This document shows positions 4,504 through 37,673 of a stretch of DNA of 64,000 nucleotides, one piece after another; position 1 is the stretch's first letter; every line of letters begins with the position of its first letter. A program made the translations under genes and the position numbers. Below the pieces are notes generated by a model. The model ran no database searches and was not told the origin of the DNA. It worked only from the letters and a program-made list of their open reading frames with translations. The stretch comes from Lysobacterales bacterium. Its GTDB lineage: Bacteria; Pseudomonadota; Gammaproteobacteria; Xanthomonadales; Xanthomonadaceae. The stretch lies in the NCBI GenBank assembly GCA_015655355.1, contig JAATFG010000065.1:1-64000 (forward strand). Direction: 5' to 3'.

Positions 4504-4521
4504 GCTCAATGTACAATGAGC
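4504..4521. promoter_or_regulatory. 18-bp near-perfect palindrome upstream of the FecI-type sigma gene
   Basis: GCTCAATGTACAATGAGC is palindromic except at one symmetric base pair. It lies about 75 bases before the sigma-factor start, in the only intergenic gap ahead of the heme locus, and it includes a TACAAT hexamer. This is a candidate operator for a dimeric repressor. It is not a clear match to the 19-bp Fur consensus. Confidence 0.45.
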
Positions 4522-4595
4522 GAACCAGCGAGCCTTCCGCCAGCCGATGACACTCGCCTGCGCGTGGAGCAAGGCCGCTACCGAGGTCGATTTCC

Positions 4596-5096
4596 GTGAC
4601 CCGCCCATCCTCTCGTTTGATCGACAGTTTCCTGAGCCTCTACGAGGAGCTGTCCCGCCACTTGCGCCGCCGAACTGGCAGCGTTGCGCGTGCCGAAGAT
4701 GCGCTTCAGGACACCTACTTGCGTCTGCTGGAAACCGAATCCCGCGGGGAAGAAATCCGCGACGAACGCGCTTTCATCTACCGGGTGGCCGGCAACTTGG
4801 CCATCGATGCGGTGCGCAAGGAGCAGCGAGCCACGGGGAATGGCGAAGCGGACGAATCCATGCCCGATCCCGCGCCCGGGCCGGAACAGCACACGCTGGC
4901 CCAGGCACGCCTGCGCCAGCTTGACCAGGCGTTGCGGGAGTTGCCGCCGAATGCCCGCCTGGCGCTGTTGCTGTTCCGGGTCGATGGCCTGTCGCATGCC
5001 CAGATCGCGGCTCGGCTTTCCGTCTCGGAAAGCATGGTGGCCAAATACCTGGCTCGCGCGTTGCGCCATTGCCGCGATCGCCTTGCGGCACCCTGA
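4596..5096 (+). CDS. FecI-family ECF RNA polymerase sigma factor
   Basis: A 166-residue extracytoplasmic-function sigma factor, starting at GTG with GAGG about nine bases upstream. Sigma region 2 spans about residues 8-75 (AEDALQDTYLRLLE, VAGNLAIDAVRKEQ). Region 4 spans about 110-160, with the helix-turn-helix LSHAQIAARLSVSESMVAKY. In the Fec paradigm it is released when a loaded TonB receptor signals through FecR, and then transcribes the receptor operon. Here FecR and an STN-domain receptor follow directly, so it most likely controls the heme uptake genes downstream. Confidence 0.93.
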   Translation: MTRPSSRLIDSFLSLYEELSRHLRRRTGSVARAEDALQDTYLRLLETESRGEEIRDERAFIYRVAGNLAIDAVRKEQRATGNGEADESMPDPAPGPEQHTLAQARLRQLDQALRELPPNARLALLLFRVDGLSHAQIAARLSVSESMVAKYLARALRHCRDRLAAP

Positions 5097-5224
5097 CCTC
5101 GGGCCGCCTCCCGAAAGCAGGGCACTGCAATTCTTCCCTTCGCCAATCGTCTTACCTGTAGAAGAGGCTATCTTTTCGCCACCGATCCTTTCATCTCCCT
5201 CACGCAGCCCACAGCCACGTCGCA

Positions 5225-6193
5225 ATGTTCGATCGGTTTCGAGCCCGCAACAACGTATTGAGCGACGAGGCCATCGAATGGATCGTCCGCATGGATGGCA
5301 ACCCCGATGCCAAGGTGCGCACGGCTTACGAGGCGTGGTGTCGCCGTTCGCCCGCGCATGCCGAGGCCGTTCGCCATGCGCGTGCCCTGCTGGAGGACGT
5401 CGGTGATACGCAAGTGGCCGCGGAGCACCGGCAGTGGGTGAGGGCGCTGACACCGTCGCGGCGGCGGCGCATTAGTCGACGTGCGTTGTTGATTGGCGGC
5501 GCATCCGCTGCCGGCGTCGCCGGGCTGGCGACGTTGACCGGCAGTGGCGTGTTGTTCGGGCCGCCAGCAGGCTTGCTGGCCGATCATTCCACTCGCATCG
5601 GCCAGCGCCGGCAGGTGGTTCTGCCGGATGGCTCCCGTGCCTGGCTCAACACGGCCAGCGCCTTGTCCGTGACGTTCTCGGAAGCGGTGCGGCAAGTGTC
5701 GGTGCTGGCGGGCGAGGTGTTGTTCGAGATTGTTCCCGATCCGCTGCGCCCGTTCGTGGCCCAGTCCAGTGATGGCGCAACGCATTCGGTTTCAGGTCGC
5801 TATGTCTTGCGCAAGGAGGATCGCCACAGCACCGTCACGGTGCTTGCCGGTGTCGTCGGAGTGCGCAACGAGGAGGGCACCGCCCGCGTTGTCGACAACC
5901 AGCGCATTGCCTTCAGCCGCGACGTGCTGGGCGCCGTGGAGGCGGTTGATGCCGCAATGCAGGCTGCGTGGACGCGTGACAAGCTGATCTTCAACCGACA
6001 GCCATTGGCAGCGATTGCGACCGAACTGGAGCGCTATATCGCCAGTCGCGTGGTCGTGGTGGGCGATCACCTGCGGAACCTGCAACTGAGTGGTGTATTC
6101 GATCTGGACGATACCGACGCCCTACTGCGCAGCGTCGCGGAGCTGGCGAAGGCCGAAATCGTCCATTTGCCATTGCTGATCCTGATTCGCTGA
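5225..6193 (+). CDS. FecR-family transmembrane sigma regulator
   Basis: A 322-residue FecR-type protein. The cytoplasmic N-terminal domain (about 1-80) has the LSDEAIEWIVRMD and YEAWCRRSPAHAEAV motifs of anti-sigma FecR proteins. One membrane segment follows an Arg-rich stretch at about 86-108. The periplasmic FecR domain begins near residue 122 (GQRRQVVLPDGSRAWLNTAS). The C-terminal domain (about 250-322) normally contacts the receptor's STN domain. It sits 128 bases after the sigma gene and 129 before the receptor, forming a three-part cell-surface signalling set. Confidence 0.92.
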   Translation: MFDRFRARNNVLSDEAIEWIVRMDGNPDAKVRTAYEAWCRRSPAHAEAVRHARALLEDVGDTQVAAEHRQWVRALTPSRRRRISRRALLIGGASAAGVAGLATLTGSGVLFGPPAGLLADHSTRIGQRRQVVLPDGSRAWLNTASALSVTFSEAVRQVSVLAGEVLFEIVPDPLRPFVAQSSDGATHSVSGRYVLRKEDRHSTVTVLAGVVGVRNEEGTARVVDNQRIAFSRDVLGAVEAVDAAMQAAWTRDKLIFNRQPLAAIATELERYIASRVVVVGDHLRNLQLSGVFDLDDTDALLRSVAELAKAEIVHLPLLILIR

Positions 6194-6245
6194 CCACGCC
6201 GGCGCAATGCCGGTGCAATTTTGCCTTGGTCGGTACGTCTATAGG

Positions 6246-6264
6246 AATGAGAGCTATTCGCATT
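6246..6264. promoter_or_regulatory. Putative Fur box ahead of the heme receptor
   Basis: AATGAGAGCTATTCGCATT has AATGAGA facing AATGCGA, six of seven bases matching in inverted arms, and resembles gammaproteobacterial Fur sites (AATGATAAT..ATTCTCATT type). It ends 58 bases before the receptor start, a normal promoter position. A short CCCGC/GCGGG hairpin lies just downstream at 6277-6290. Confidence 0.5.
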
Positions 6265-6322
6265 TATGGCTCGGGTCCCGCCCATGCGGGTATCCATTCC
6301 ACCCGCCGAACTTTCGGAATTC

Positions 6323-9300
6323 ATGAAAACCACCCCCGCCCTCCGATCCTGCCTGCGCTCGCTGTTGGCAATCGGCATCACCATGGCCCTGTGTTCGACG
6401 CCGGCGCTGGCCCGGCAAGCGCCGGAGCAGACCGCCCAGGCCACCACCCGCGATTTCGACATCCCCGCACAACCGCTGGACAGCGCACTGACCCGGCTGG
6501 CCGATCAAGCCGGCGTGCGCATCCTGTTCGCATCGGATGAAGTCGCCAGTTTGCAGCCACAGGGCGTTACCGGGCGCTACACCACCGAACAGGCATTGAC
6601 GCAGTTGTTGTCAGGCACGGGCATGGCCTGGCATTGGCGAGAACCTGGAATCGTCGCCATCGAAAGGGCGGCAGCGGACCGGCAAGCGGCGAATGGTGTC
6701 GTCACCACCGGCACGCTCAACGTGAGTGGCGAGCGCGTGGCCGGGGCCGCGGGTGAGCAACGCGACATCCAGGGTCATGACGATGTGTACGACCTGGATC
6801 TGTCCACGTCCTACATCGGTCGCAAGGAAATCGAACGCTACAAAGGCACCACGCCTTCGGATCTGGTCAAAGGCGTGCCCGGCGTGTTCAGTGGCGACGC
6901 CCGCAACAGCGGCGCACTGGACATCAGCATCCGCGGCATACAAGGCCCGGGTCGCGTGCCGGTCGTCATTGACGGCACCGAGCAGGCCTTGACCGTCTGG
7001 CGCGGTTACAACGGCGCGACCAATCGCAACTATATCGATCCGTTCCTGATCGGCGGGATCCAGGTCATCAAGGGCCCGGCGCAGGTGCGCAACGTCAACA
7101 CCGGCATCGGTGGCGCGATGGTGGTCAACACGCTGGATGTGGACGACTTCCTCAAGCCCGGCGAGAAATTCGGTGGCGAGATCAAGGTCGAAGGCAGCAG
7201 CAATTCAGTTGATCCGCGCGTGCCGACCCTGCTCACCGGCGAGGATTACCGCGACGTTCCCGGGTTCGGGAGTAGCCCGAACATTCCCTATCTGGATCCG
7301 AGCCTGCGGATCACGCCGAAGACCGGCGGCGGTGGCTACAACGTGTTCAAGGGCGAGGACTACGCCTATCGCGCAGCGCTGGGCTATCGCCCGACCGACA
7401 ATCTCGATTTCCTGTTTGCTTATGCCTATCGCGAACGCGGCAATTATTACTCGGGCAAGCACGACGCCAGTTATTACCAACACGACCGAACGAATTATTC
7501 GGACGACTACATAAATTCGCTGGCCAACTACTTCTCGCCTGGCAGCGAGGTGCCGAATACCTCCAGCCAGATGGAGTCGTATCTGTTCAAGGCCAGTTGG
7601 CGCCCTGCCGATGATCAAGCCCTGCAGTTCGGCTACCGCAAAAGCCTGTCGCACTATGGCGAAATCATGCCTTCGCGAATTCTGGTCAGCAATATCACCG
7701 ACCAGGGCGATATCCAGTGGCCCTTGAGTCGCGTCGACACCCAAGCGTACAACCTGGAATACAAATGGCGGCCCGAGGACAGTCGCTGGATGGATTTCTA
7801 CGCCAACCTGTGGCGTACCGATACGGTCAGCGATACCTACACGGCTGGCGGTTTCCCGAATTACGCCGATCCGGCCTGGGAACTTGATTATCCGAATCAA
7901 TATCCTGATGCCAGCACACTCTTGCACAACACCGCGTTGGCCAATGCCACCGACATCCGCAATGGCGTCACCCTCAGCAACAAGTTCCATCTGGCCGACA
8001 GCCTGGACTTCACTGTGGGCGGCAACTTCCAGCACGAAAAGCTGAGCTCGGCCGACCCTTACTTCGGTACCAGCGACGGTTGGCGCATGTATCCCCGCGC
8101 AGGGCGTCGCGAGGAATGGAATGCCGATTTCAGTTTCGAATGGCGGCCACTTGACTTCCTGACCTTGAATGCCGGCGCCCGCTACTCGTCCTACTGGGCG
8201 TTCGACGACTTCCTGGCCGTCCATCAGGACGATTTCGGGGATCTCTCGGTCGTTACCTCATACCAGGTCACGTATGCCGAATCGGTCATGCCTACCCAGC
8301 AGGAGATCGATGCTGGCACGCAGGCGCTGCGCGATGCATATCAACCCTTCATCGATGATGCTCTTGCATCCGGACAGATCGACACCGCGAAGGCTGCCGA
8401 GGATGAATTTGCACAGCTGGTTGCACAATTGTCGCAACCCTATACCAAGGCAACCACGGTGCCGTGGGAGCCGGACAGCAACGGCCATTACAGCAAGGCG
8501 ACCAATGTCTGCCTCAATGGCGCGCTGAGCGATCACGATCTGGTGGGCTGCTCGACGAGCTCCGTTCGTACCGACATGGCCAACCCGGCCAGGAAACGCA
8601 AGGACCATGGCTGGGTGCCGTTCTTCACGGCCACGGTCAATTTCAGCGACTACAGCCGTGCCTATGTCCGTTATGGCGAAATGTTGCGTTACCCCAGCAT
8701 GTTCGAGAGCACCATCGGGTTTTCGTCGTCGCTCAATCCCTGGGACCTGAAGCCGGAGCATAGCTACAACTGGGAAGTCGCCTATGTCCACGACCTCAGC
8801 CATTTGCTGAGTCCGGGCAGCATCGCCGACGTCAAATTGGCGTGGTACCGGAACAAGACAGCCGACGTGATCGAGCGCGACAGCCACTTCTATTTCTACA
8901 ACATCGACAAACAGGTCATCAGCGGCCTGGACCTGCAAGGGCGCTACGACAATGGCCGCTTCTTCACCGATCTGGCATTCAATTACCAGATCAAGGATCA
9001 GGTCTGCGACCAAAGCACGGCGGCGATCAACACGGCGCTTTACTACAGAATGGATGGCAGTTCCTATGACTTTCCGAACTGCGTGAAGTACGGCTACGTC
9101 GGCGGTTATCTGCTGACCCAGGCCACGCCGGAATTGTCCACCACCTGGTCGCTGGGCGGGCGCTTCTTCGACAAGCGCCTGGAAGTCGGCGGACGTGTCG
9201 TCCACTACAAGCAATATTCCAATCCCGATCTGGAAGCCGTCCGCGATCATTCCATCACGAGCGGCGGAACCTTTCCATGGGGATTCAATATCCCGCTTTC

Positions 9301-9475
9301 GTGGGGGCAGACCACGGTCATCGATGCCTACGCCAGCTACAAGCTGCATGAAAACCTGAGTGCAGAACTGACGGTCACCAACCTGACCGATCAGTTCTAC
9401 GTGGACCCTGCGACGCGTTCCGCGATGGCCGCGCCTGGGCGCACGCTGAAGCTCAGTTTGACGGGGAGGTTCTGA
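6323..9475 (+). CDS. TonB-dependent heme/hemophore receptor with STN signalling domain
   Basis: A 1050-residue outer-membrane receptor counted from the ATG at 6323, chosen because a clear signal peptide follows (cleavage near ALA-RQ, residue 30); an upstream in-frame ATG at 6266 gives no sensible leader. Residues about 43-95 form the STN/secretin domain (FDIPAQPLDSALTRLADQAG) that talks to FecR. The plug is at about 150-290 (PGVFSGDARN, SIRGIQGPGRVPVVIDG) and a 22-strand barrel ends in an aromatic residue (TLKLSLTGRF). Its place before the hemophilin-like and Slam genes matches HphR-type receptors. The gene looks less GC-rich than its surroundings. Confidence 0.9.
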   Translation: MKTTPALRSCLRSLLAIGITMALCSTPALARQAPEQTAQATTRDFDIPAQPLDSALTRLADQAGVRILFASDEVASLQPQGVTGRYTTEQALTQLLSGTGMAWHWREPGIVAIERAAADRQAANGVVTTGTLNVSGERVAGAAGEQRDIQGHDDVYDLDLSTSYIGRKEIERYKGTTPSDLVKGVPGVFSGDARNSGALDISIRGIQGPGRVPVVIDGTEQALTVWRGYNGATNRNYIDPFLIGGIQVIKGPAQVRNVNTGIGGAMVVNTLDVDDFLKPGEKFGGEIKVEGSSNSVDPRVPTLLTGEDYRDVPGFGSSPNIPYLDPSLRITPKTGGGGYNVFKGEDYAYRAALGYRPTDNLDFLFAYAYRERGNYYSGKHDASYYQHDRTNYSDDYINSLANYFSPGSEVPNTSSQMESYLFKASWRPADDQALQFGYRKSLSHYGEIMPSRILVSNITDQGDIQWPLSRVDTQAYNLEYKWRPEDSRWMDFYANLWRTDTVSDTYTAGGFPNYADPAWELDYPNQYPDASTLLHNTALANATDIRNGVTLSNKFHLADSLDFTVGGNFQHEKLSSADPYFGTSDGWRMYPRAGRREEWNADFSFEWRPLDFLTLNAGARYSSYWAFDDFLAVHQDDFGDLSVVTSYQVTYAESVMPTQQEIDAGTQALRDAYQPFIDDALASGQIDTAKAAEDEFAQLVAQLSQPYTKATTVPWEPDSNGHYSKATNVCLNGALSDHDLVGCSTSSVRTDMANPARKRKDHGWVPFFTATVNFSDYSRAYVRYGEMLRYPSMFESTIGFSSSLNPWDLKPEHSYNWEVAYVHDLSHLLSPGSIADVKLAWYRNKTADVIERDSHFYFYNIDKQVISGLDLQGRYDNGRFFTDLAFNYQIKDQVCDQSTAAINTALYYRMDGSSYDFPNCVKYGYVGGYLLTQATPELSTTWSLGGRFFDKRLEVGGRVVHYKQYSNPDLEAVRDHSITSGGTFPWGFNIPLSWGQTTVIDAYASYKLHENLSAELTVTNLTDQFYVDPATRSAMAAPGRTLKLSLTGRF

Positions 9476-9561
9476 TCCCGTCGACAACGGACAAGGACGC
9501 AGCAAAGGTGCGGACAGGAGGTCTGCTGGTTTTGCATTTCAATCAACCAAGAGGTTACATC

Positions 9562-10362
9562 ATGAGCAGCAACAGAAAACTCTCCAGTCTTGCGCTGGCC
9601 TTGCTGGCCGTCGTTTCGGCTGGCTCGGCTTCGGCTCAGACCAAGACTTTCAATGGCGCCACCAGCGACGACCCGACGAACACCTACGTCAAGGTCGGCG
9701 AATCGGATGTCAATGGCGGCCCGCATCACAGCGGCTATGCCGGGATCGGCGTCCAAAGCACGGGGGTGGACACCCAGGTCGACTTCCAAGGCTTGGCCAC
9801 CTACGGCGGCAGCAACGCGGTGAAGGTACTTTCCTATCCGTACGACCCGACCTCGCCGCACCCGGACCTGGGCGTGTTCGCGTTCTCCAAGGTGGGCACC
9901 GCTGACGTCTGGTTCGGTGAGTGGTCCGCTGACGGTTCGCCGAATTACAGCAATCGTCAGGTTTACTACATAGGCGATAATACAAATGTGACTCTGCCCG
10001 GTAGTGGTACTGCGACCTATACGGTTGCCGGCATCAACCAGTACAACGGCACCAGCACTGCGGCTGGCACCAATCTGCTGACAGGTACCTTCACCGCCGA
10101 CTTTTCGACCAATCATTTGTCGGGCAGCCTGACCCGTACCGGTTCCAGCACGGTCAATACCTTGGCCTTGGGCAGCGTGGTCACGCCCTACGTAACCATC
10201 AATCCATCCACTGCCACCTTCAGTGGCCTGGCTCGGGCCAATTCGGTTGTGGGTACCACCAGTGGCAGTTTCTTCGGGGCGAATGCAACTGCCCTGGCCG
10301 GCATCGCGACGTTCACTGGCAATAGCCAGTACAACACCGCATTCGGCGGTACCAAGAACTGA
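9562..10362 (+). CDS. Secreted hemophilin-like (HphA-type) heme-binding protein, Slam substrate
   Basis: A 266-residue exported protein. The start at 9562 is preceded by AGAGG, and a signal peptide ends at ASA-Q (residue 25-26). There is no lipobox cysteine, so it should be soluble rather than a surface lipoprotein. The N-terminal half is a variable, aromatic- and His-containing handle (PHHSGYAG, DVWFGEWSADG). The C-terminal half has the small TbpB-like eight-strand barrel signature (GTFTADFSTNHLSGSLTRTG, SGSFFGANATALAG, ending AFGGTK). That barrel is what Slam translocators recognise. With a TonB receptor upstream and a Slam gene downstream it best fits a hemophore. Ligand identity is inferred from heme oxygenase in the same locus. 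Confidence 0.82.
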   Translation: MSSNRKLSSLALALLAVVSAGSASAQTKTFNGATSDDPTNTYVKVGESDVNGGPHHSGYAGIGVQSTGVDTQVDFQGLATYGGSNAVKVLSYPYDPTSPHPDLGVFAFSKVGTADVWFGEWSADGSPNYSNRQVYYIGDNTNVTLPGSGTATYTVAGINQYNGTSTAAGTNLLTGTFTADFSTNHLSGSLTRTGSSTVNTLALGSVVTPYVTINPSTATFSGLARANSVVGTTSGSFFGANATALAGIATFTGNSQYNTAFGGTKN

Positions 10363-10466
10363 CCAATCGTCGGTTTGGATTCGTCCATAACCTGATGTTT
10401 GTTTGACGATACGGCAAGGACCAGCTGCGGCAGCCCGTCCTTGCCACTGTTGAAGCGATCTTGCTC

Positions 10467-11972
10467 ATGCACCCGATTTTCTTCGCGTGGCGCCAGCTTC
10501 GGCATCGCGCATTGCCGCAGATTCCTTTCCTGCTTGTTGGCTTGATGGGCTGGCCCTTGCATGCCCAGGAACAGGACGACACCCGTCGCATCCTCGACCA
10601 GCGCAACGGGCAGCAATCCGTCGAGCGCGAACGCGAACTGCTGAAAGGCGAACTGGACGGCGCCCGCCCGACGATCACCGTGGATGGCCAAACCCATGTC
10701 GTCGAACATACGGTCAGTGATGTGGGCCGCGCCTTGTACCTTTCATTGCAGAACAAGCAGTGGGCGGCAGCCGCGCATTTTTTGCACGAGTATCTGACTT
10801 TGCCGGATCGCGATCCGATGCTGGTGCATTACGCGCAGGGCATGCTCGCGCGCCTGCAAGGCCATTACGCCGAGGCCGAGCGTGAATTCCGCGTGCTGCT
10901 GGAATCGCAGCCGGATTTTCTGCTTGGGCGGCTGGAGTTGGCGCGGACGCTGTTCGAGGACCAACAGGATCGCGAGGCCGCGGAACTGTTCGAGGCCATT
11001 GATGGTTCCATCGATGCCACCGATCCCAGGACTGAAGGTGTGCGCAAGACCATCACGGTGTTCCGTCAGGCGTTGCGCAATCGTTCTGCATGGAGCGGGT
11101 CGTTCTCGTTCGGACCGATCTGGAGCGACAACGTCAATCGCACTTCGGCCAGCCATACCTGCCTGTTCTATTACGAAGGCATGTGCTTCTACGACCGCAA
11201 GACGCCCGACGCCATCTCCGCTGCCGGAATCGACTACGACGCCAGCCTTGACAAGTATTTTCCATTGGGTGGCCATCATGGCTTGTACTTGCGTTCGTTG
11301 CTGTTCGGCGAGAGCTACCGCGACAATAGCGCATACGACGAACTGACCTCGACCACGCAAGCCGGTTACAGCTTTCGCAGCGGCCGAAACAATTTTGCAC
11401 TGGCCCCTTCGTTCGATTACTACGCGTTGGGCGACTCCGCGCTGTATGGCGCATGGGGCCTGCATGGCGAATGGAGCCATACCTTGTCGCAAGCCTCGCT
11501 GCTGAAGGTGGAAGGCGACTGGAAGGACATGCGCTATCGAAATGTCGCTTATGCGAGCAACTACGACGGCGTCTCGCGTTCGATTTTCGCCACTTACTTC
11601 CACGGTCTCGGCGCACGCTGGACGTTATTTGGCGGCGCGGATTATCTGGACAGCAATGCGCCGATCGAAGCCAACGCCTATCGACAAACGGGGGTGCGCC
11701 TGGGGGCGTCGCTGCAATGGCCCGACGGATTCAACAGCACGCTGTTTGCATCCTATCGACATCGCGATTACGGCGCCTACAGCGCACTCCTGGACGCGCT
11801 CCGGAAGGACAACGAGCAGAACTACATCCTCGTGATCAAGGCGGCGCGCCTGGCCTTTGCCGGTTTTACCCCACTGCTGACCCTGCGCAGGAACTCGGTC
11901 AAGAGCAGCGTGGACTGGTTGTATTCCTATGACAAGGACGTCGCCAGCCTGAAATTGGAGCATGCGTTCTGA
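10467..11972 (+). CDS. Slam-type (DUF560) outer-membrane translocator, HsmA-like
   Basis: A 501-residue protein from the ATG at 10467 (a TTG two codons earlier is possible). It has a signal sequence, then TPR-like helices at about 70-200 (AQGMLARLQGHYAEAEREFR, LGRLELARTLFEDQ). A C-terminal beta-barrel domain with alternating aromatic strands follows, ending in Phe (KLEHAF) as outer-membrane barrels do. Slam proteins move substrates with TbpB-like barrels across the outer membrane; the preceding gene is a fitting substrate. Length and domain order match Slam/HsmA. Confidence 0.85.
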   Translation: MHPIFFAWRQLRHRALPQIPFLLVGLMGWPLHAQEQDDTRRILDQRNGQQSVERERELLKGELDGARPTITVDGQTHVVEHTVSDVGRALYLSLQNKQWAAAAHFLHEYLTLPDRDPMLVHYAQGMLARLQGHYAEAEREFRVLLESQPDFLLGRLELARTLFEDQQDREAAELFEAIDGSIDATDPRTEGVRKTITVFRQALRNRSAWSGSFSFGPIWSDNVNRTSASHTCLFYYEGMCFYDRKTPDAISAAGIDYDASLDKYFPLGGHHGLYLRSLLFGESYRDNSAYDELTSTTQAGYSFRSGRNNFALAPSFDYYALGDSALYGAWGLHGEWSHTLSQASLLKVEGDWKDMRYRNVAYASNYDGVSRSIFATYFHGLGARWTLFGGADYLDSNAPIEANAYRQTGVRLGASLQWPDGFNSTLFASYRHRDYGAYSALLDALRKDNEQNYILVIKAARLAFAGFTPLLTLRRNSVKSSVDWLYSYDKDVASLKLEHAF

Positions 11973-12052
11973 ATCCAATGGCGATTGATCCTGCCGCCAA
12001 TCCCGTGTCCGCCAACATCCTGCCATTTCCCGCTTTCCCGAGAGCCGCCACC

Positions 12053-12679
12053 ATGCACGAAGCGATTGTCGATTCCACGTCTACCCGCAGCCAGCGGCTG
12101 AAGGCTGCCACCCACGCCGTCCACGATGTGCTGGACAAGCGCATCATGGCTGCGGGCATCTTCACCGGCCGCGAGCAGTTCGCGAAGTTCCTGCGTGCGC
12201 AATATCGTTTCCATCGCGATATCGATGCGCTGTACGCCAGGCCACGATTGCATGCGTTGCTGCCGGAACTCGACGAGCGCCGCCGCTTGCTGAAAATCGC
12301 CAGCGATTTAGGGGATTTGGGCAAGCCGTTGCCGACGGACGCCCGCGGGCGATTGGACGAAACCACGTCGCTCCCGGTCGCACTGGGCTGGTTGTACGTG
12401 GCCGAAGGTTCCAACCTCGGTGGCATGATCCTGCTCAAGTTCGCGCACGAGAAACTCGGGTTGGGTTCGGACTTTGGCGCCCGTCACCTGGCAGCGCATC
12501 CGGAGGGGGCCGCCCGGCATTGGCGTCAATTCACGACGGCACTGGATGCCGTGCGGTTGTCGCCGACGCAGGAGGAGGACGTGGTACGGGGCGCGCAGGA
12601 TGCTTTCCGTACGGTGCATCACTATGTGGAAGAGGAGTTGCCGTTGGCCGGCTCTTCCCCTGTGGCAGGGCATGCATGA
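12053..12679 (+). CDS. hemO: Heme oxygenase, bacterial HemO/PigA type
   Basis: A 208-residue all-helical heme oxygenase that opens imported heme to biliverdin, CO and free iron in the cytoplasm. RSQRL then the proximal heme ligand (His24 here, by alignment with His26 of PigA) and the distal helix ALGWLYVAEGSNLGG are visible, as is DFGARHLAAHPEGAARHW near the C-terminus. The start at 12053 gives a PigA-like N-terminus; an upstream ATG at 11978 would add 25 residues and sit 5 bases after the Slam gene. Its stop overlaps the next start by four bases. Confidence 0.93.
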   Translation: MHEAIVDSTSTRSQRLKAATHAVHDVLDKRIMAAGIFTGREQFAKFLRAQYRFHRDIDALYARPRLHALLPELDERRRLLKIASDLGDLGKPLPTDARGRLDETTSLPVALGWLYVAEGSNLGGMILLKFAHEKLGLGSDFGARHLAAHPEGAARHWRQFTTALDAVRLSPTQEEDVVRGAQDAFRTVHHYVEEELPLAGSSPVAGHA

Positions 12680-13068
12680 ATCCAGTGGCGCCCGATCCGG
12701 CACCGATCGGCGGGCTGCGGCGCGCCTTGTTGCGGGTGCTGGCCGTGGTCAGCCTGGGATTGGCTTTTGTCGGCGTGGTGACGCCGGGCTTGCCGACGAC
12801 CGAGTTCGTGTTGCTCGCCGCCTGGGCCGCGGCGCGCAGTTCGCCGCGCTTGCACGCATGGATATTGCGTCATCGTTTGTTCGGGCCATTGCTGGCGCAC
12901 TGGCAGGCGGGCAAGTTGCCGCGCAAGGCCAAATGGGCCGCAACTTTCACGATGACGCTGGCCGGCACGTTTTCGGCATTGACGATTCCGCACAAGCCGA
13001 GCGTGGCGATCATCATCGGTTGCATGGCTTGCGTGCTGGCATGGCTGTGGCGAAGGCCGGAACCATGA
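12676..13068 (+). CDS. DUF454 (YbaN-like) inner-membrane protein
   Basis: A 130-residue protein with the DUF454 pattern: a first membrane helix leading into GVVTPGLPTTEFVLLAAWAAARSSPRL, then HRLFGPLLAHW and two closely spaced C-terminal membrane segments. The function of the family is unknown, but members often sit beside heme oxygenase or heme uptake genes. It is coupled to hemO by an ATGA overlap and to the following gene by another ATGA overlap, so it is firmly part of this operon. Confidence 0.87.
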   Translation: MNPVAPDPAPIGGLRRALLRVLAVVSLGLAFVGVVTPGLPTTEFVLLAAWAAARSSPRLHAWILRHRLFGPLLAHWQAGKLPRKAKWAATFTMTLAGTFSALTIPHKPSVAIIIGCMACVLAWLWRRPEP

Positions 13069-13382
13069 GTGGGAAGCGTCCACTCCGGCAGCGTGCGGGC
13101 TGGACCGCCATCGGTGACATCGGTTCGTCGCCGCATGCGTGCGTATTGCGTGCCGCAGGATTGAAAGTCACCTCGGCCCGTCTGGCGGCGTTGCGCCTTG
13201 CGCCGGAGGTACTGCGCAATCACGGCCATCTGACTGCGCGAAACGTTTACGAGGCAGCCTGCCGGCACGGCTACACGCTGTCACCGACGGCCTTTCATGG
13301 CGTGCTGCCCAAGCTGGCAAATGCCGGGTTGCTGCCGCAACCGACGACCTCCCTTCCTTCTCGTCCCGATGAATTGGATTGA
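13065..13382 (+). CDS. Short Fur-family-like protein with DNA-binding domain only
   Basis: A 105-residue protein. Residues about 28-92 resemble the Fur winged helix: VLRAAGLKVTSARLAALRLA aligns with the AGLKVT-x-RL start of Fur, followed by HLTARNVYEAACRHG and VLPKLANAGLL. The C-terminal metal-binding and dimerization domain of Fur (HHHDH, CxxC) is absent, and the only Cys residues lie outside that pattern. ATG overlaps the previous stop; exbB starts 4 bases after its stop. It may be a local regulator of the heme operon, or a decayed Fur copy kept by its position. Confidence 0.66.
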   Translation: MSGKRPLRQRAGWTAIGDIGSSPHACVLRAAGLKVTSARLAALRLAPEVLRNHGHLTARNVYEAACRHGYTLSPTAFHGVLPKLANAGLLPQPTTSLPSRPDELD

Positions 13383-13385
13383 CCG

Positions 13386-14108
13386 ATGCAAATCATGACC
13401 GCGAACCTTCCGCCCGATCTGGGCCCGTGGCAAATGTTCCTGCATGCCGGGGGTGTAGTGCAGGCCGTGATGGTCGGTTTGGCGCTGGCGTCGATCGTCA
13501 CCTGGACCGTGCTGGTTGCCAAGACGTGGGAACTGCGCCGGATTGGCCGTTCGTTGCGCACTGCCCGCGCGGTGCTGGCGCGCGCTGTGCAGTTGCCCGA
13601 CACCGAAGGCAATCCGCATCTGGGCGATGGCATTGTCCATGACCTGATCGTCGAGGCCCGCGCGGAGCTGCAGCAGTCCGCGGGTTTGCCGGACAAGGCT
13701 GGAATCAAGGAGCGGATCGCTTCGCGTCTGGAGCGGGTCGAACTGAATCATGTGCGTCACCTGCGCATCGGCACCGGGCTTCTCGCCACTATTGGCGCGA
13801 CTGCGCCGTTCGTGGGCCTGTTGGGCACGGTGTGGGGGATCATGAACAGCTTCATCGGCATCGCCAAATCCAACACGACCAGCCTGGCGGTGGTTGCACC
13901 CGGCATTGCCGAGGCCTTGCAAGCCATGGCGTTGGGGCTGGTGGCCGCGATTCCGGCGGTGGTGATCTACAACCATTTCAGCCGGCGACTGGCTGCCCTG
14001 CGAGGCGACTTGGGCGATGTGTCGGCGGAATTGCAGCGGATCATCTCGCGTGATCTGGATCGTCGAGAAGCGTCGAAGGCGGACGCTGCCGCCGTATCCA
14101 TGCACTGA
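13386..14108 (+). CDS. exbB: Biopolymer transport protein ExbB (MotA/TolQ/ExbB family)
   Basis: A 240-residue inner-membrane proton-channel subunit with three membrane helices. The first is at about 20-42; the conserved pair follows GLLATIGATAPFVGLLGTVWGIMNSF and IAEALQAMALGLVAAIPAVVIYN, the core MotA/ExbB signature. It joins ExbD and TonB to power outer-membrane receptors with the proton gradient. An in-frame ATG three codons in is an alternative start. The dedicated copy next to the receptor suggests a private energizer for heme uptake. Confidence 0.95.
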   Translation: MQIMTANLPPDLGPWQMFLHAGGVVQAVMVGLALASIVTWTVLVAKTWELRRIGRSLRTARAVLARAVQLPDTEGNPHLGDGIVHDLIVEARAELQQSAGLPDKAGIKERIASRLERVELNHVRHLRIGTGLLATIGATAPFVGLLGTVWGIMNSFIGIAKSNTTSLAVVAPGIAEALQAMALGLVAAIPAVVIYNHFSRRLAALRGDLGDVSAELQRIISRDLDRREASKADAAAVSMH

Positions 14109-14121
14109 GCGGAGCCGGACG

Positions 14122-14544
14122 ATGGCAATCAGGACGAGTCGCGAAGATGACGATCTGGACGAGAACCACGAGATCAATGTCACGCCTTTCATCGACGTGA
14201 TGCTGGTGTTGCTGATCATCTTCATGGTGGCTGCTCCGTTGGCGACGGTCGATGTGCCGGTGGAGCTGCCATCCAGCACGGCGCAGCCACGGCCGAAGGA
14301 TCACGCGCCAATCTATTTGACCGTGCAAGCCGACCTCTCGTTGAGCCTGAACCAGGACAAGGTCACACGGGCCGAGCTGAAAGCGAAACTGGATGCGTTG
14401 ACCCGGGGCGACCGCGACGAGCGCATCTTTCTTCGCGCCGACAAGGAAGTGCCTTATGGCGAACTGATGGGCGCGATGAATGCGTTGCGCGATGCCGGCT
14501 ATCTGAAAGTGGCATTGGTCGGATTGGAGCAATCCGGAAAATGA
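14122..14544 (+). CDS. exbD: Biopolymer transport protein ExbD
   Basis: A 140-residue ExbD/TolR protein. It has a short cytoplasmic N-terminus, one membrane helix with the essential Asp (INVTPFIDVMLVLLIIFMV), and a periplasmic domain with the FLRADKEVPYGELMGAMNAL motif. The start at 14122 has GGAG eight bases upstream. The stop overlaps the tonB start by four bases. Confidence 0.96.
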   Translation: MAIRTSREDDDLDENHEINVTPFIDVMLVLLIIFMVAAPLATVDVPVELPSSTAQPRPKDHAPIYLTVQADLSLSLNQDKVTRAELKAKLDALTRGDRDERIFLRADKEVPYGELMGAMNALRDAGYLKVALVGLEQSGK

Positions 14545-15290
14545 GCGTGCTGGAGCATGACCGGGCGCTCCTGCGCTGGAGCGGCAGCTTCGGCATGGCG
14601 TTGCTTGTGCATGTTGCCGTCATCGGCGTGGTGCTGTGGTGGCATGCGTCTCGTCCGGCGCAGCCGCTGCCGCCACAGGCGCAAGCCGTGATGGTGGAAC
14701 TGGCGCCATCGCCGACTGCACCGCCGACGTCGCCCACCGATCTGCCGCCGGGAGCACTGCAGCAGGAGCAGCGCAAAGCCCAACCCGAGGCAGCGCCGAA
14801 GCCGGCCCCCAAACCGGAGCCACAGCAAAAGCCGCAAGAGCATGCGGAAGTCGCGTTGCCGCAGCAGGCGCGGCAACGGCAGAACGACGAGAACGCCAAC
14901 AATGACGTCGCGCAGACCAGTGCCCCGCCGAGTGTGCAGGCATCTGTCGATAGCCGCTATGCGGCCAATCAATCATCGGCGGGCGTGATGCCTCAGGCGA
15001 TGGCGACGTGGCAGTCGCAGATATTGGGCCGTCTGGAGCACTTCAAGCAGTATTCCCGTGACGCGCAACGACGACGTCTCTTCGGGACGGTGCAAGTGCA
15101 GTTCCAAGTCAATCGGCAAGGTCAGGTGCTGGCCGTGGCGGTTGTCCAGGGCAGCGGCCATGACCTGCTGGATGACGAAGCGGTGGCCACGGTGCGACGG
15201 GCCAGTCCATTGCCGCCGCCCCCGCCGGAGTTTCTTGGTGATCCGGTCACGGTGACGACGCCGGTGGAGTTCACGTTGCAGAGGCGTTGA
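14541..15290 (+). CDS. tonB: TonB energy-transducing protein
   Basis: A 249-residue TonB. One N-terminal membrane anchor is at about 16-35 (SFGMALLVHVAVIGVVLWW), and a Pro/Gln/Lys/Glu-rich periplasmic spacer runs at about 40-130 (EAAPKPAPKPEPQQKPQE). The C-terminal domain from about 155 has GTVQVQFQVNRQGQVLAVAV, DEAVATVRRASPLPPPP and VTVTTPVEFTL. It contacts the TonB box of receptors. As the last gene of the + strand heme locus it is likely dedicated to the receptor at 6323-9475. Confidence 0.95.
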   Translation: MSVLEHDRALLRWSGSFGMALLVHVAVIGVVLWWHASRPAQPLPPQAQAVMVELAPSPTAPPTSPTDLPPGALQQEQRKAQPEAAPKPAPKPEPQQKPQEHAEVALPQQARQRQNDENANNDVAQTSAPPSVQASVDSRYAANQSSAGVMPQAMATWQSQILGRLEHFKQYSRDAQRRRLFGTVQVQFQVNRQGQVLAVAVVQGSGHDLLDDEAVATVRRASPLPPPPPEFLGDPVTVTTPVEFTLQRR

Positions 15291-32924: not shown

Positions 32925-33115
32925 CCTTCGTCCAAGGCTTGAAACGGGAAGCCGGTGCGTCCGCTTGCATGCGCAAGCCGATCATTCCGGCGCTGCCCCC
33001 GCAACGGTAAGCGCGCGATGCCTCCGCAACCGCCACTGTGCATTCGCATGGGAAGGCGCGAAGGCCGAAGCCGACAGGCTTTCAGCACGCAAGCCCGGAG
33101 ACCGGCCTCGGAGCT
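32925..33115 (+). ncRNA. Cobalamin riboswitch controlling btuB-btuFCD
   Basis: The conserved AdoCbl core is readable: GGGAAGCCGGTG (32946-32957), GCCCCCGCAACGGTAAGC (32995-33012), CACTGTG (33034-33040), GGGAAGGCG (33050-33058) and a B12-box-like CCCGGAGACCGGCC (33094-33107). It fills most of the 348-base gap between gph and btuB. B12 binding would fold the leader and switch off the transport operon. About 130 bases of expression platform follow, and a GGAGAG site precedes btuB. Confidence 0.93.
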
Positions 33116-33243
33116 CGTGGTTGCGATGCGGCGGGCATGGCGGCGGGCGACGAACCGCGCTCCGCTTCGTTCTCCTGCACATTTTCTCCGCGCGTGGCCT
33201 TCATCGACCGCAACGCGCACGGGGTCGTGCGCACGGAGAGAAC

Positions 33244-35130
33244 ATGTTTCATCGCAATCGCCACCCCGCGCCGCGCGCGCGCCGTTTTCACCCACGCGCG
33301 CATGCACTTGCCTGCGCCATCGCCGCGTTGCTGCCGTTGGCGGCGCATGCCGCCGATGACAGCGACACGGCGGACACGCTCGACGGCATCGTCGTCACCG
33401 CCTCGCGCCAGCCGACGCGCATCGACCAGGTGCTGAGCGACATCACCGTGATTTCGCGCGACGAAATCGAAGCCAACATCGGCGCCACCGTTTCCGATCT
33501 GCTGTCACGCCAACCCGGCATCCAGATGGCGCGCAACGGCGGGCCCGGCACCGCGACCAGCTTCTTCGTGCGCGGCACCAATTCGCCGCAGACCAAGGTG
33601 CTGGTCGACGGCGTGGCGATCAACTCGCTGGACGCGTCCGGCTCGGCGCTGCCGAACATCGCGCTGGCCGACGTCGACCACATCGAGATCGTGCGCGGCC
33701 CGGCGTCCACGCTGTACGGTGCCGACGCGATCGGCGGCGTGATCCAGATCTTCACCAGGCAGGGCGAACAGGGCGTGCACGCCGACGGCTTCGCCGGCAT
33801 CGGCACGCGCGGCACCTCGCAGGCGAACGCGGGCGTGTCCGCCGGCGGCGAGCACTGGCGCCTGCGCGTCGGCGCCAACCATCAGTACAGCGACGGCATT
33901 TCCTCGCTGGAAAAATCGCAGGTGACCGGCCACGACCGCGACGACGACGCGTACCGCAACAACGGCGGCGACGTGGCGTTCTCGGTGTTGCCGGCGCAAG
34001 GCCACGAGATCGGCGTGAACTGGCGCGAAAACAAGGGCTACGCCGCCTACGACGACGGCTACGATCCGACCGACAACAACCACGAACTGTTCCTGCAATC
34101 GCAATGGCAGGCGTTCGCGCGCGACCAGTTCACCTCGAACTGGCACAGCACCGTGCAATACGGCGAAGCGCGCGAGGACCAGCATGATTTCGACAATTAC
34201 GGCGGCGGCCGCATCAGCACCACCAACAAGCAGGCGAGCTGGCAGAACGACATCGACCTGCCGCTAGGCCGCCTGCTGCTGGCAGCGGAATACCTCGACC
34301 AGGAAGGCGAGGATTACGGCCCGCTGGATTCGATGCACATCGATTCGCTGCTCGCCGGCTGGAATGCGCACCTGGGCGCGTCGAGCTGGCAGCTCAACGT
34401 GCGCAACGACGACCACTCCACCTTCGGCGACAAGAACACCTTCGGCCTTGCCTACGGCTATCAATTCACGTCGCACTGGCGCGTGCAGGCCAGCTACGGC
34501 AGCGCGTTCAAGGCGCCGTCGCTGTACCAGTTGTACGCGCCGCTGTACGGCAACACCGCGTTGCGCCCGGAATTCGCCCACAACGGCGAACTCGCGCTGC
34601 ACTGGAACGATGGCGTGCAGGACGCGTCGATCACCGCGTACCGCAATCGCGTCAACGACATGATCGACTGGGTGGTCACCGATCCGGTCACCTACGCCGG
34701 CCAATACGTCAACGTCAATCGCGCGCAGTTGCAGGGCGTGACCCTGGCCTACGGCCTGCGTTTCGATGCGTGGACGCTGGATGCTTCCTACGATTACCTC
34801 GACGCGAAGGACGAGGACAGCGGCCTGCGCCTCGGCCGCCGCGCGCGCAACAGCGTCAAGGTATCCGGCGCGTATCACTGGAGCCGGTTCGAGCTGGGCG
34901 CGGAAGTGGTCAGCGCCGGTTCGCGCTTCGACACCAACACCGAGAACGACGCGGCCAACGCGCTCGGCGGCTACGCCCTCGTCAACCTGCACGCGGCGTG
35001 GAGGTTCAGCGATGCGCTGAGCCTGGAAGCGCGCGTGGACAACCTGTTCGACAAGGACTACGAACTGGCCAAGGGTTATTCGACGCCGGGCATCGGCGGC
35101 TTCCTCGGGTTGAGGTATGCGCCGCGTTGA
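33244..35130 (+). CDS. btuB: TonB-dependent vitamin B12 receptor BtuB
   Basis: A 628-residue outer-membrane receptor. The start at 33244 has GGAGAG in front and a signal peptide ending LAAHA-AD. A TonB box (DGIVVTASR) comes next, then the plug (SDLLSRQPGIQMARNGGPGTA, IEIVRGPASTLYGADAIGG) and the barrel, ending GGFLGLRYAPR. The riboswitch upstream and btuFCD downstream make cobalamin the clear ligand. There is no N-terminal STN domain. Its stop overlaps btuF by 14 bases. Confidence 0.94.
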   Translation: MFHRNRHPAPRARRFHPRAHALACAIAALLPLAAHAADDSDTADTLDGIVVTASRQPTRIDQVLSDITVISRDEIEANIGATVSDLLSRQPGIQMARNGGPGTATSFFVRGTNSPQTKVLVDGVAINSLDASGSALPNIALADVDHIEIVRGPASTLYGADAIGGVIQIFTRQGEQGVHADGFAGIGTRGTSQANAGVSAGGEHWRLRVGANHQYSDGISSLEKSQVTGHDRDDDAYRNNGGDVAFSVLPAQGHEIGVNWRENKGYAAYDDGYDPTDNNHELFLQSQWQAFARDQFTSNWHSTVQYGEAREDQHDFDNYGGGRISTTNKQASWQNDIDLPLGRLLLAAEYLDQEGEDYGPLDSMHIDSLLAGWNAHLGASSWQLNVRNDDHSTFGDKNTFGLAYGYQFTSHWRVQASYGSAFKAPSLYQLYAPLYGNTALRPEFAHNGELALHWNDGVQDASITAYRNRVNDMIDWVVTDPVTYAGQYVNVNRAQLQGVTLAYGLRFDAWTLDASYDYLDAKDEDSGLRLGRRARNSVKVSGAYHWSRFELGAEVVSAGSRFDTNTENDAANALGGYALVNLHAAWRFSDALSLEARVDNLFDKDYELAKGYSTPGIGGFLGLRYAPR

Positions 35131-35926
35131 TGCGCTCGCGCTGATGTTGTTCGCCGCTTGCGCCGCGCTGGCACAGGCGGCGTTCGCGTTGCCGGTTGAA
35201 GTTCCGAAGCGCGCGGCTCCACGACGCATCGTCTCGCTGGATTTGTGCACCGACTGGTTGTTGCTCGATTACGCGCCGCGCACGCAAGTCGCGGCGCTGT
35301 CGCCGATGCGCGAGCGCTGGCACACCGACGACCTGGGGCCCCACGACTGGCCGACCCACGACGGCAGCCTCGAACGCATCCTGATGTTGAAGCCCGACCT
35401 GGTCATCACCGGCCAATACAACGCGATCGTGCTGCGCGAACGGATGAAGGAACTCGGCGTGCGCGTCGAAGTGCTGCCGCTGCCGACGCGGCTGGATGAA
35501 GTCGACGCTTACGAAAAACGTTTTCTCGAATTGATCGGCCAGCCGGCCTCGCGCGCCAGCGCCGCGCTTCCTGCGAGCGATGCGCACCACGGCCAGCGCC
35601 TGCTGATGCTCGGCGACAACGGCATCGGCATGGGTGCCGGCACGCTGGAGGACGACGTGCTGCGCCGCGCCGGCTGGACGAACTATCTGCAAAGTGAGGG
35701 CCGGGTGTCGCTGGACATGGAAAAACTCGTCACCGACAAACCCGATGCGGTGCTGTGGTCGTCGCCTTCCAGCCCGGCGCTGGCCAATCGCTTCGCCGAG
35801 CAGCCGGTGCTCAAGCGCGCGATACCGGCGTCGCGCTGGCTGAAGACCGATACCTGGCGCTGGCAATGCCCGGGACCCTGGACGTGGGACTTGGTCAGGC
35901 AATTGCGCGATGGAGTCTCGCAATGA
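35117..35926 (+). CDS. btuF: Periplasmic cobalamin-binding protein, BtuF-like
   Basis: A 269-residue class III periplasmic binding protein with a signal peptide of about 24 residues. The two lobes joined by a long helix carry PRRIVSLDLCTDWLLLDYAP at the N-terminus, LMLKPDLVITGQYN and LEDDVLRRAGWTNYL. It delivers B12 to the BtuCD permease. Overlaps btuB by 14 bases and btuC by 4, so the operon is translationally coupled. Confidence 0.9.
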   Translation: MRRVDALALMLFAACAALAQAAFALPVEVPKRAAPRRIVSLDLCTDWLLLDYAPRTQVAALSPMRERWHTDDLGPHDWPTHDGSLERILMLKPDLVITGQYNAIVLRERMKELGVRVEVLPLPTRLDEVDAYEKRFLELIGQPASRASAALPASDAHHGQRLLMLGDNGIGMGAGTLEDDVLRRAGWTNYLQSEGRVSLDMEKLVTDKPDAVLWSSPSSPALANRFAEQPVLKRAIPASRWLKTDTWRWQCPGPWTWDLVRQLRDGVSQ

Positions 35927-36915
35927 ACGTGCAACGCTGGCTGGTTCCCGTGTTGATCGTCGCGCTGCTGTCGAGCGTGTTCGCATCGCTGGCACTGGGC
36001 TCCGCACCGGTGCCTGTATTCGCCGGCTTGAGCGACTGGATGCACGCACGCGAAACCGCCGCGGCGATGATCGTCGGCGACATCCGCCTGCCGCGCACCG
36101 TGCTCGCCTTGCTGGTCGGCGCCTGCCTCGGTTTGAGCGGCGCGGCGATGCAGGGTTTGCTGCGCAACCCGCTGGCCGATCCGGGCTTGACCGGTGCCTC
36201 GCAAGGCGCGGCGCTCGGCGCGGCGGCGGTGTTCTATTTCGGCGTGTTCGCTTCATGGGGTTCGCTGGCGCCGGCGCTGGCCGGTTTGATCGGTGCCGGC
36301 GCATGCCTGTTGCTGATGCTGCTGCTGGCCGGCAAGGCGCGGCCGGCGCAACTGATCCTCGCGGGGTTGGCGATTTCCAGCCTCGCCGGCGCGTTGCTGG
36401 CGGTGGTGCTGAATTTCGCGCCGAACCCTTACGCGATGCAGGAGCTGATTTTCTGGATGCTCGGCTCGGTGGAAGACCGCGGCCTGTCGCAGCAATGGCT
36501 GTTGTGGCCGGCGCTGGCGCTGGGCGCGGCGCTGGTGTTCTCGCAACGCCGCTTGCTCGCCGCGCTGGGCATGGGCGAAGCGGTCGCGCAGAGCCTCGGT
36601 TTTTCGGTGCAGCGCGGCGGGCGCGTGATCGTGCTCGGCGTGGCGCTGATGATCGGCGCATCGGTGTCGATCGCCGGCAATGTCGGCTTCGTCGGCCTGG
36701 TCGTGCCGCATCTGCTGCGCCCGCTGGTGAAGCACAAGCCGGAAAGACTGCTGCTGCCGTCGATGCTGTTCGGTGCGCTGCTGGTTGAAGTGGCCGACAT
36801 CTGCGTGCGCCTGTTGCCGCCGGGTCGCGACGTCAAGCTCGGTGTGCTCACCTCGCTGATCGGCGCGCCGCTTTTCATCCATCTGGTGTGGAAGGAGCGC
36901 CGACAGTGGACGTGA
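35923..36915 (+). CDS. btuC: FecCD-family ABC permease BtuC
   Basis: A 330-residue permease with about ten membrane helices, starting at ATG 35923 (ATGA overlap with btuF). IRLPRTVLALLVGACLGLSG and MQGLLRNPLADPGLTGASQGA are the family's signature. ISIAGNVGFVGLVVPHLLR-type sequence near the C-terminus (VSIAGNVGFVGLVVPHLLRP) contains the ATPase-coupling region. Transports cobalamin across the inner membrane. Confidence 0.94.
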   Translation: MNVQRWLVPVLIVALLSSVFASLALGSAPVPVFAGLSDWMHARETAAAMIVGDIRLPRTVLALLVGACLGLSGAAMQGLLRNPLADPGLTGASQGAALGAAAVFYFGVFASWGSLAPALAGLIGAGACLLLMLLLAGKARPAQLILAGLAISSLAGALLAVVLNFAPNPYAMQELIFWMLGSVEDRGLSQQWLLWPALALGAALVFSQRRLLAALGMGEAVAQSLGFSVQRGGRVIVLGVALMIGASVSIAGNVGFVGLVVPHLLRPLVKHKPERLLLPSMLFGALLVEVADICVRLLPPGRDVKLGVLTSLIGAPLFIHLVWKERRQWT

Positions 36916-37673
36916 CCGTTTCCGACAAAGGCGCGCTGCTGCATGTCGAAGGCCTGGGCGTCGGCGAACGCCTGCGCGATGCGGGCTTCGATTTGCGCAG
37001 CGGCGAAGTGCTCGGTGTGCTCGGCCGCAATGGCGCGGGCAAGTCGAGCTTGCTGCAAGCCGTCGCCGGCATCGTTCCGCATCGCGGCAACGTGCGTCTC
37101 GAAGGACACAATCTGGACGCGCTGCCGTTGTCGCAGCGCGCGCGCCTGGTCGGCTGGCTGCCGCAGAATTCTGGCAGCGCATGGTCGCTGGACGTGCGCG
37201 ACGTGGTTGCGCTGGGCCGCCTGCCGTGGGGCGACGAGGATGCACAGGCGATTGCCGGCGCCGCGCGCCGCACCGGCATCGAAGCGCTGATGGCGCGGCG
37301 CATCGACCAGCTTTCCGGCGGCGAGCAGTCGCGCGTGTGGCTGGCGCGCGTGCTGGCCGGGCAGCCGCGCGTGTTGCTGGCCGACGAGCCGATCGCCAGC
37401 CTCGACCTCGCTTACCAGCGCCAGATCCTGCACCTGCTGCGCGCCTATGTTGATGGGCATGCGGCCGATGCCGGCCATGGCGTGCTGCTGGCGATGCACG
37501 ATCTTGGCCTGGCCGCGCGTTATTGCGACCGCGTGCTGCTGCTCGATGGCGGCCGCATCGTCGCGCTCGGCACGCCCGCCGAGGTGTTGACCGAAGAGCG
37601 TCTGTCGCAAGTGTTCGACGTGCCGGTGCGCGTGCGCCTCGGCGACGATCCGCCAATGGTTGCGTTGAAGTGA
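36906..37673 (+). CDS. btuD: ABC transporter ATPase BtuD
   Basis: A 255-residue ATPase. The start at GTG 36906 is preferred because AAGGAG lies nine bases before it; a GTG at 36888 would add six residues. Walker A is GRNGAGKSS, the Q-loop WLPQNSG, the signature LSGGEQSRVWLARVLA, Walker B VLLADEPIASLD and the switch His in AMHDLGLAARY. It completes the BtuCDF importer. Confidence 0.93.
   Translation: MDVTVSDKGALLHVEGLGVGERLRDAGFDLRSGEVLGVLGRNGAGKSSLLQAVAGIVPHRGNVRLEGHNLDALPLSQRARLVGWLPQNSGSAWSLDVRDVVALGRLPWGDEDAQAIAGAARRTGIEALMARRIDQLSGGEQSRVWLARVLAGQPRVLLADEPIASLDLAYQRQILHLLRAYVDGHAADAGHGVLLAMHDLGLAARYCDRVLLLDGGRIVALGTPAEVLTEERLSQVFDVPVRVRLGDDPPMVALK

Follow-up and report, generated by a model that had tools for sequence, protein, structure and literature searches.

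The hemO cluster of Acinetobacter baumannii is tabulated, in the source consulted, as genes for an ECF sigma factor, an anti-sigma factor, hphR, hphA, hsmA, a TonB-related protein, a heme oxygenase and a hypothetical protein (PMC10483418). In the sections of a second report drawn on here, heme is bound by H43 and H106 of A. baumannii HphA, the H43A/H106A form showing neither heme binding nor use as a heme source, and a single histidine ligates heme in the hemophilin of Haemophilus haemolyticus (PMC8560813). Solved hemophilins are also available from Stenotrophomonas maltophilia, Vibrio harveyi and Haemophilus parainfluenzae; the earlier note on the DNA analyzed here, which presented a hemophilin locus "outside Acinetobacter-type bacteria", was therefore correct as to the fact but not as to its novelty.

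The window, a 64,000-nucleotide stretch of a Lysobacterales contig, carries eleven plus-strand genes between positions 4596 and 15290 (Table 1). They are read here, with a probability of roughly 93%, as a hemophilin (HphA/Slam, type 11 secretion) heme-acquisition operon. The reading is founded on gene identities, gene order, conservation in relatives and both heme-histidine positions, while the secretion route, heme binding, delivery to the receptor and signaling are carried over from characterized relatives. All eleven frames are intact, running from a start codon to one terminal stop, and each gene has Pfam or NCBIfam matches, the weak ones being those of the receptor STN domain and of the Fur-like protein. 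The earlier description of a same-strand hemophilin/Slam heme-uptake locus with signaling and TonB parts is thus borne out by intact frames and family matches. From fecI to slam the intergenic gaps are 128, 72, 86 and 104 bases; downstream of slam, as far as tonB, neighboring genes either overlap or are separated by at most 13 bases (5, -4, -4, 3, 13 and -4 bases). The fecI frame starts at a GTG at 4596, as against 4504 for the start of the region first noted, and ATG 9562, with AAGAGG directly upstream, is the preferred hphA start. In the assembly, which is 94% complete, the only SlipAM gene and the only heme oxygenase both lie inside the locus. Measured in 1 kb steps across positions 1-24000, the GC content is 0.58-0.60 at 7001-12000, over hphR-hphA-slam, and 0.61-0.69 everywhere else; the difference may be due to the composition of the encoded proteins or to an origin outside this genome.

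Table 1. Genes of the hemophilin locus in the window, and intact furN copies in other loci
Sequence	Feature	Position	Strand	Best-supported match
Window	fecI-type ECF sigma factor, 166 aa	4596..5096	+	Sigma70_r4_2 1e-17, Sigma70_r2 1e-10
Window	fecR-type anti-sigma/sensor, 322 aa	5225..6193	+	FecR 1.2e-14
Window	hphR, putative TonB-dependent heme/hemophore receptor with STN-like N-terminal signaling domain, 1069 aa from first start	6266..9475	+	barrel 1.9e-18, plug 7.3e-18
Window	hphA, predicted secreted hemophilin, 266 aa	9562..10362	+	HphA_N 6.6e-30, HphA_C 1.5e-16
Window	slam, hsmA-like type 11 secretion outer-membrane protein, 501 aa	10467..11972	+	SlipAM 1e-53, TPR_Slam 3e-25
Window	hemO, heme oxygenase, 233 aa	11978..12679	+	Heme_oxygenase 1.7e-22
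Window	DUF454 small protein, 130 aa, ATGA overlap with hemO	12676..13068	+	DUF454 6.9e-33
Window	furN, 105 aa, ATGA overlap with DUF454	13065..13382	+	hhalign against Fur profile 97.1, E 5.4e-11
Window	exbB, 240 aa	13386..14108	+	TIGR02797 equivalog 5.1e-83, over cut-off
Window	exbD, 140 aa	14122..14544	+	ExbD 3.4e-30, scored on frame from 14017
Window	tonB, 249 aa	14541..15290	+	TonB_C 7.1e-19; TIGR01352 2.8e-20
L082	furN, intact	6424-6765
L083	furN, intact	6460-6801
L087	furN, intact	13462-13809
L089	furN, intact	9974-10309
L149	furN, intact	2155-2895

By analogy with the characterized systems, HphA would be exported by Sec, and the adjacent Slam would then pass the soluble protein across the outer membrane. 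Heme would be held between H55 and H100 in the N-terminal clamp of HphA and handed to the receptor HphR, import would be powered by ExbB-ExbD-TonB, and HemO would free the iron once heme is in the cytoplasm. After loading, HphR is expected to act on FecR and FecI by way of its N-terminal domain and so to raise expression.

The Pfam model HphA_N matches HphA with 104.2 bits against a cut-off of 22, over 104 of its 110 positions, and the C-terminal barrel is matched over cut-off by both HphA_C and TbpB_B_D (4.3e-08). The search of 9562-10362 that the earlier note had proposed thus gave hemophilin and TbpB-barrel models alike. The N terminus resembles a signal peptide by eye. The NCBIfam Slam-cargo model is also over cut-off; its name refers to lipoproteins, and the protein contains no cysteine, which makes lipidation at a lipobox impossible. 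Six distinct solved sequences are matched (8gmm, 9us7, 7re4, 8gm3, 6om5 and 8glo), the best being 8gmm (1.8e-54), titled "Stenotrophomonas maltophilia Holo HphA". Foldseek with the AlphaFold model also found 8gmm (3.0e-16), among hits whose titles name hemophilins of S. maltophilia, V. harveyi, H. parainfluenzae, H. haemolyticus and A. baumannii. This agrees with the expected eight-stranded Slam-substrate barrel in the C-terminal half, in a model that is poor (mean pLDDT 53, residues 1-107 below 50, from a shallow alignment), so that the structural match is carried mainly by the barrel and the assignment of the handle by sequence.

The histidines of HphA lie at 55, 56, 100 and 185. In the alignments, H55 corresponds to the histidine of the GGPH motif of 8gmm and H100 to that of the PSHSALG segment of A. 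baumannii HphA, the PDB alignment of the latter stopping short of H43. By this alignment, equivalents of both heme-ligating histidines are present in the window protein. Of 38 HphA copies aligned, one is that of the window, one comes from an Osedax symbiont and 36 stem from 34 further loci of the family; a histidine is found at the H55 position in all 38 and at the H100 position in 35. The three exceptions are L087, where the histidine is one place off, and the first tandem copies in two Stenotrophomonas genomes; the one-histidine ligation in H. haemolyticus is a known parallel for a single-histidine state.

The locus might instead encode a Slam-secreted carrier of some other ligand (a different porphyrin, a metal or a protein), with only the barrel in common with hemophilins. 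TbpB-type barrels also occur in Slam cargo of other function, HphA is matched by TbpB_B_D over and by HpuA under cut-off, and its handle is modeled with low confidence, but that same handle matches HphA_N at 6.6e-30 with both histidines kept, a heme oxygenase is part of the operon, and the best NCBIfam match of the receptor, under the model cut-off, is TonB-hemin (1.4e-69). Such a carrier is therefore considered extremely improbable. For the same two reasons, the HphA_N match and the histidines, the suggestion that the handle is not obviously like known ones, and hence that ligand or binding mode might be new, finds no support, and a new handle or ligand was discarded as a candidate.

The hemophilin reading also draws on the genes around hphA. 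The DUF560 Slam assignment of the gene at 10467 was upheld, since SlipAM and, in the N-terminal part, TPR_Slam both score over cut-off; slam adjoins hphA in all 35 loci of the family, giving indirect support to a predicted export of HphA by its neighbor. Upstream, the ECF sigma gene is followed by fecR, with Sigma70 and FecR models over cut-off. The signaling domain of the receptor is less clear-cut: STN scores 26.0 bits (E 8.1e-06) against a Pfam cut-off of 28.4, and residues 34-237 align with FecA far under the model cut-off. A scan with the 19-base E. coli-type Fur box consensus gave nothing convincing in the operon, where the best site (14/19) lies inside hphR; a 15/19 match occurs elsewhere in the window. 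No heme ABC permease was seen in the incomplete assembly, which contains a single FecCD gene. That gene lies in the window at about 33000-37673, together with a TonB receptor, a periplasmic binding protein and an ATPase, a cluster that by eye reads as cobalamin-type uptake.

In the family the locus is patchy. The HphA_N model matched 4 of 100 genomes in a first sample and 35 of 395 family genomes (9 of 54 genera), the two samples overlapping and both including the window genome, and none of 14 control genomes. This pattern bears on a second alternative, a copy in the window that is silent or not used. Within the genus, HphA_N occurs in only 3 of 38 genomes, the own one among them, and the own assembly is fragmented (138 contigs, with 7.49% estimated contamination), but the eleven frames are intact, the key residues are kept and the locus lies on a contig of 90,989 bases; a silent copy is thus regarded as very unlikely.

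Where the hemophilin locus is present, its first five genes hold together. In all 35 loci, that of the window included, hphR, hphA and slam are found, and fecI and fecR are present in 34; the remaining locus lies at the end of a contig of 3.7 kb. Counted on the same strand within 8 kb, hemO is present in at least 15, DUF454 in at least 14, tonB in at least 18, and exbB with exbD in at least 11 of these loci, figures that are lower bounds because two loci (L076, L080) are cut by contig ends. The order fecI-fecR-hphR-hphA-slam is thus the constant core and the rest optional. A look at the 1.5 kb around glmS in seven relatives showed neither glmU nor fecI nor either of two genes from the downstream side of the locus, a result uninformative on a shared insertion site.

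Among the optional genes, DUF454 appears to follow hemO. Heme oxygenase was matched in 58 of 198 family genomes, and 30 hemO loci were inspected, each being the best match of its genome (second matches, such as those of G249 and G038, were left out). Among the 20 loci with the highest scores (L102, L134-L152), 18 have DUF454 after hemO on the same strand, as does one of the ten others, with start distances of at most about 300 bases (a 300-base gap in G134). Such pairs also occur in genomes that have hphA at another place or lack it, among them G151 and G249 as well as G134 and G248, the last two without an HphA_N match, which argues that DUF454 goes with hemO and not with Slam. On the other hand, DUF454 is common by itself (158 of the 198 genomes), so that its pairing with hemO is not exclusive. 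The protein has two hydrophobic stretches and is probably located in a membrane. In the published data consulted, DUF454 is counted 118 times and heme oxygenase 137 times near cluster 1 Slam-type genes (n = 1,111; PMC12282271), and an iron-induced DUF454 gene is described in the part of another report used here (PMC7970244). A literature search found no title or abstract opening on DUF454/YbaN together with heme oxygenase, which is not proof of absence.

The third gene of this block, furN, is matched by the Fur profile in hhalign with a probability of 97.1 (E 5.4e-11), the two profiles being built from no more than five and six sequences. The match spans Fur residues 7-74, the winged helix half that binds DNA; it ends at residue 74 with 13 residues of the protein left, and the C-terminal dimerization and metal-sensing domain of Fur is not present in this comparison, for which reason furN is not counted among the Fur proteins here. 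Against the Pfam FUR model the window protein scores 15.5 for a cut-off of 23.1; all five furN proteins scanned are below cut-off, one of them, that of G134, taken from slightly upstream, giving no match. With a single-sequence model (mean pLDDT 74), the top four Foldseek hits are Fur proteins, with probability 1.00 and E values of 0.035 or more. Kinship to Fur is thus suggested by profile-profile comparison.

A search for furN-type genes in 297 family genomes gave matches in 156, mostly ordinary Fur among those inspected. Intact furN was recognized in six (the window genome, G276, G212, G261, G134 and G248), and in all six it sits behind DUF454; two of these genomes, G134 and G248, have furN after hemO-DUF454 but no hemophilin. 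A further candidate, in G358, proved to be an ordinary Fur gene whose frame is broken in that assembly. Broken traces occupy the same place in L013 (an internal loss) and in L077 and L078 (frame breaks). For one close intact pair, with 27 differences, dN/dS of furN is 0.29, as against 0.10-0.28 for six neighbors. Repeated loss says that furN is dispensable, and intact frames in six genomes suggest that it has been of use somewhere. It is conceivable, though on balance doubtful, that hemO-DUF454-furN forms a separable heme-handling module in which the DUF454 protein would be an inner-membrane partner of HemO, for heme entry or docking, and FurN a sensor-less local regulator that would compete with or assist Fur at heme-uptake promoters. 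The literature search likewise gave no title or abstract opening in which a hemophore occurs with a protein that is truncated or resembles Fur, which again does not prove absence.

The hemophilin system itself is already known and has been solved structurally in a related bacterium, and by sequence the window copy is a well-supported member of it; the only unfamiliar part is the 105-residue Fur-like gene. The locus adds a complete hemophilin operon for the family of Stenotrophomonas, in which five core genes stay joined and the genes for heme breakdown and the TonB system are variably present. It also makes testable two small but real questions, on DUF454 beside heme oxygenase and on a sensor-less Fur-like protein in an iron operon.

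The nearest counterparts are found in Stenotrophomonas, which we infer to belong to the same bacterial family as the window genome (Lysobacteraceae). The hemophilin of one S. maltophilia locus (L010) is near-identical to 8gmm (3.7e-127), in agreement with the title of that entry, and 48% identical to the window HphA over the alignment. The Stenotrophomonas loci have fecI-fecR-hphR-hphA-slam in the same order. In contrast to the window, no hemO, DUF454 or exbB-exbD-tonB lies downstream of slam in 14 loci of the genus, and in the Stenotrophomonas genomes inspected hemO-DUF454 is located elsewhere. Four Stenotrophomonas loci (L006, L007, L008 and L010, in the last at 9096-9824) carry a second, tandem hemophilin before the main one, which keeps the first heme histidine and has none at the second position.

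The A. baumannii hemO cluster shares the five opening genes with the core of the window locus, and also has a heme oxygenase and a TonB-related protein. In its published table, the TonB-related protein precedes the heme oxygenase and no exbBD is listed, whereas the window has exbB-exbD and DUF454-furN, with tonB last (PMC10483418); the earlier claim that both loci follow the same logic thus holds overall, but not for exbB and exbD. Both HphA proteins have the two heme-histidine positions, while a lipobox motif is reported for that of A. baumannii (PMC8560813) and the window protein has no cysteine. The H. haemolyticus hemophilin (6om5) is alike in its clamp and Slam-type barrel (E 2.9e-30), and, according to the same source, uses one heme histidine where the window HphA has both positions (PMC8560813). 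Finally, the Hrp system of Xenorhabdus nematophila (HrpA/HrpB/HrpC, TXISS-1B) pairs a soluble hemophilin homolog with a DUF560 protein dedicated to it, and a heme receptor and TonB are encoded next to them; FecI-FecR, HemO, DUF454 and ExbBD, all of which the window locus contains, are not named in the text consulted for it (PMC8406197).
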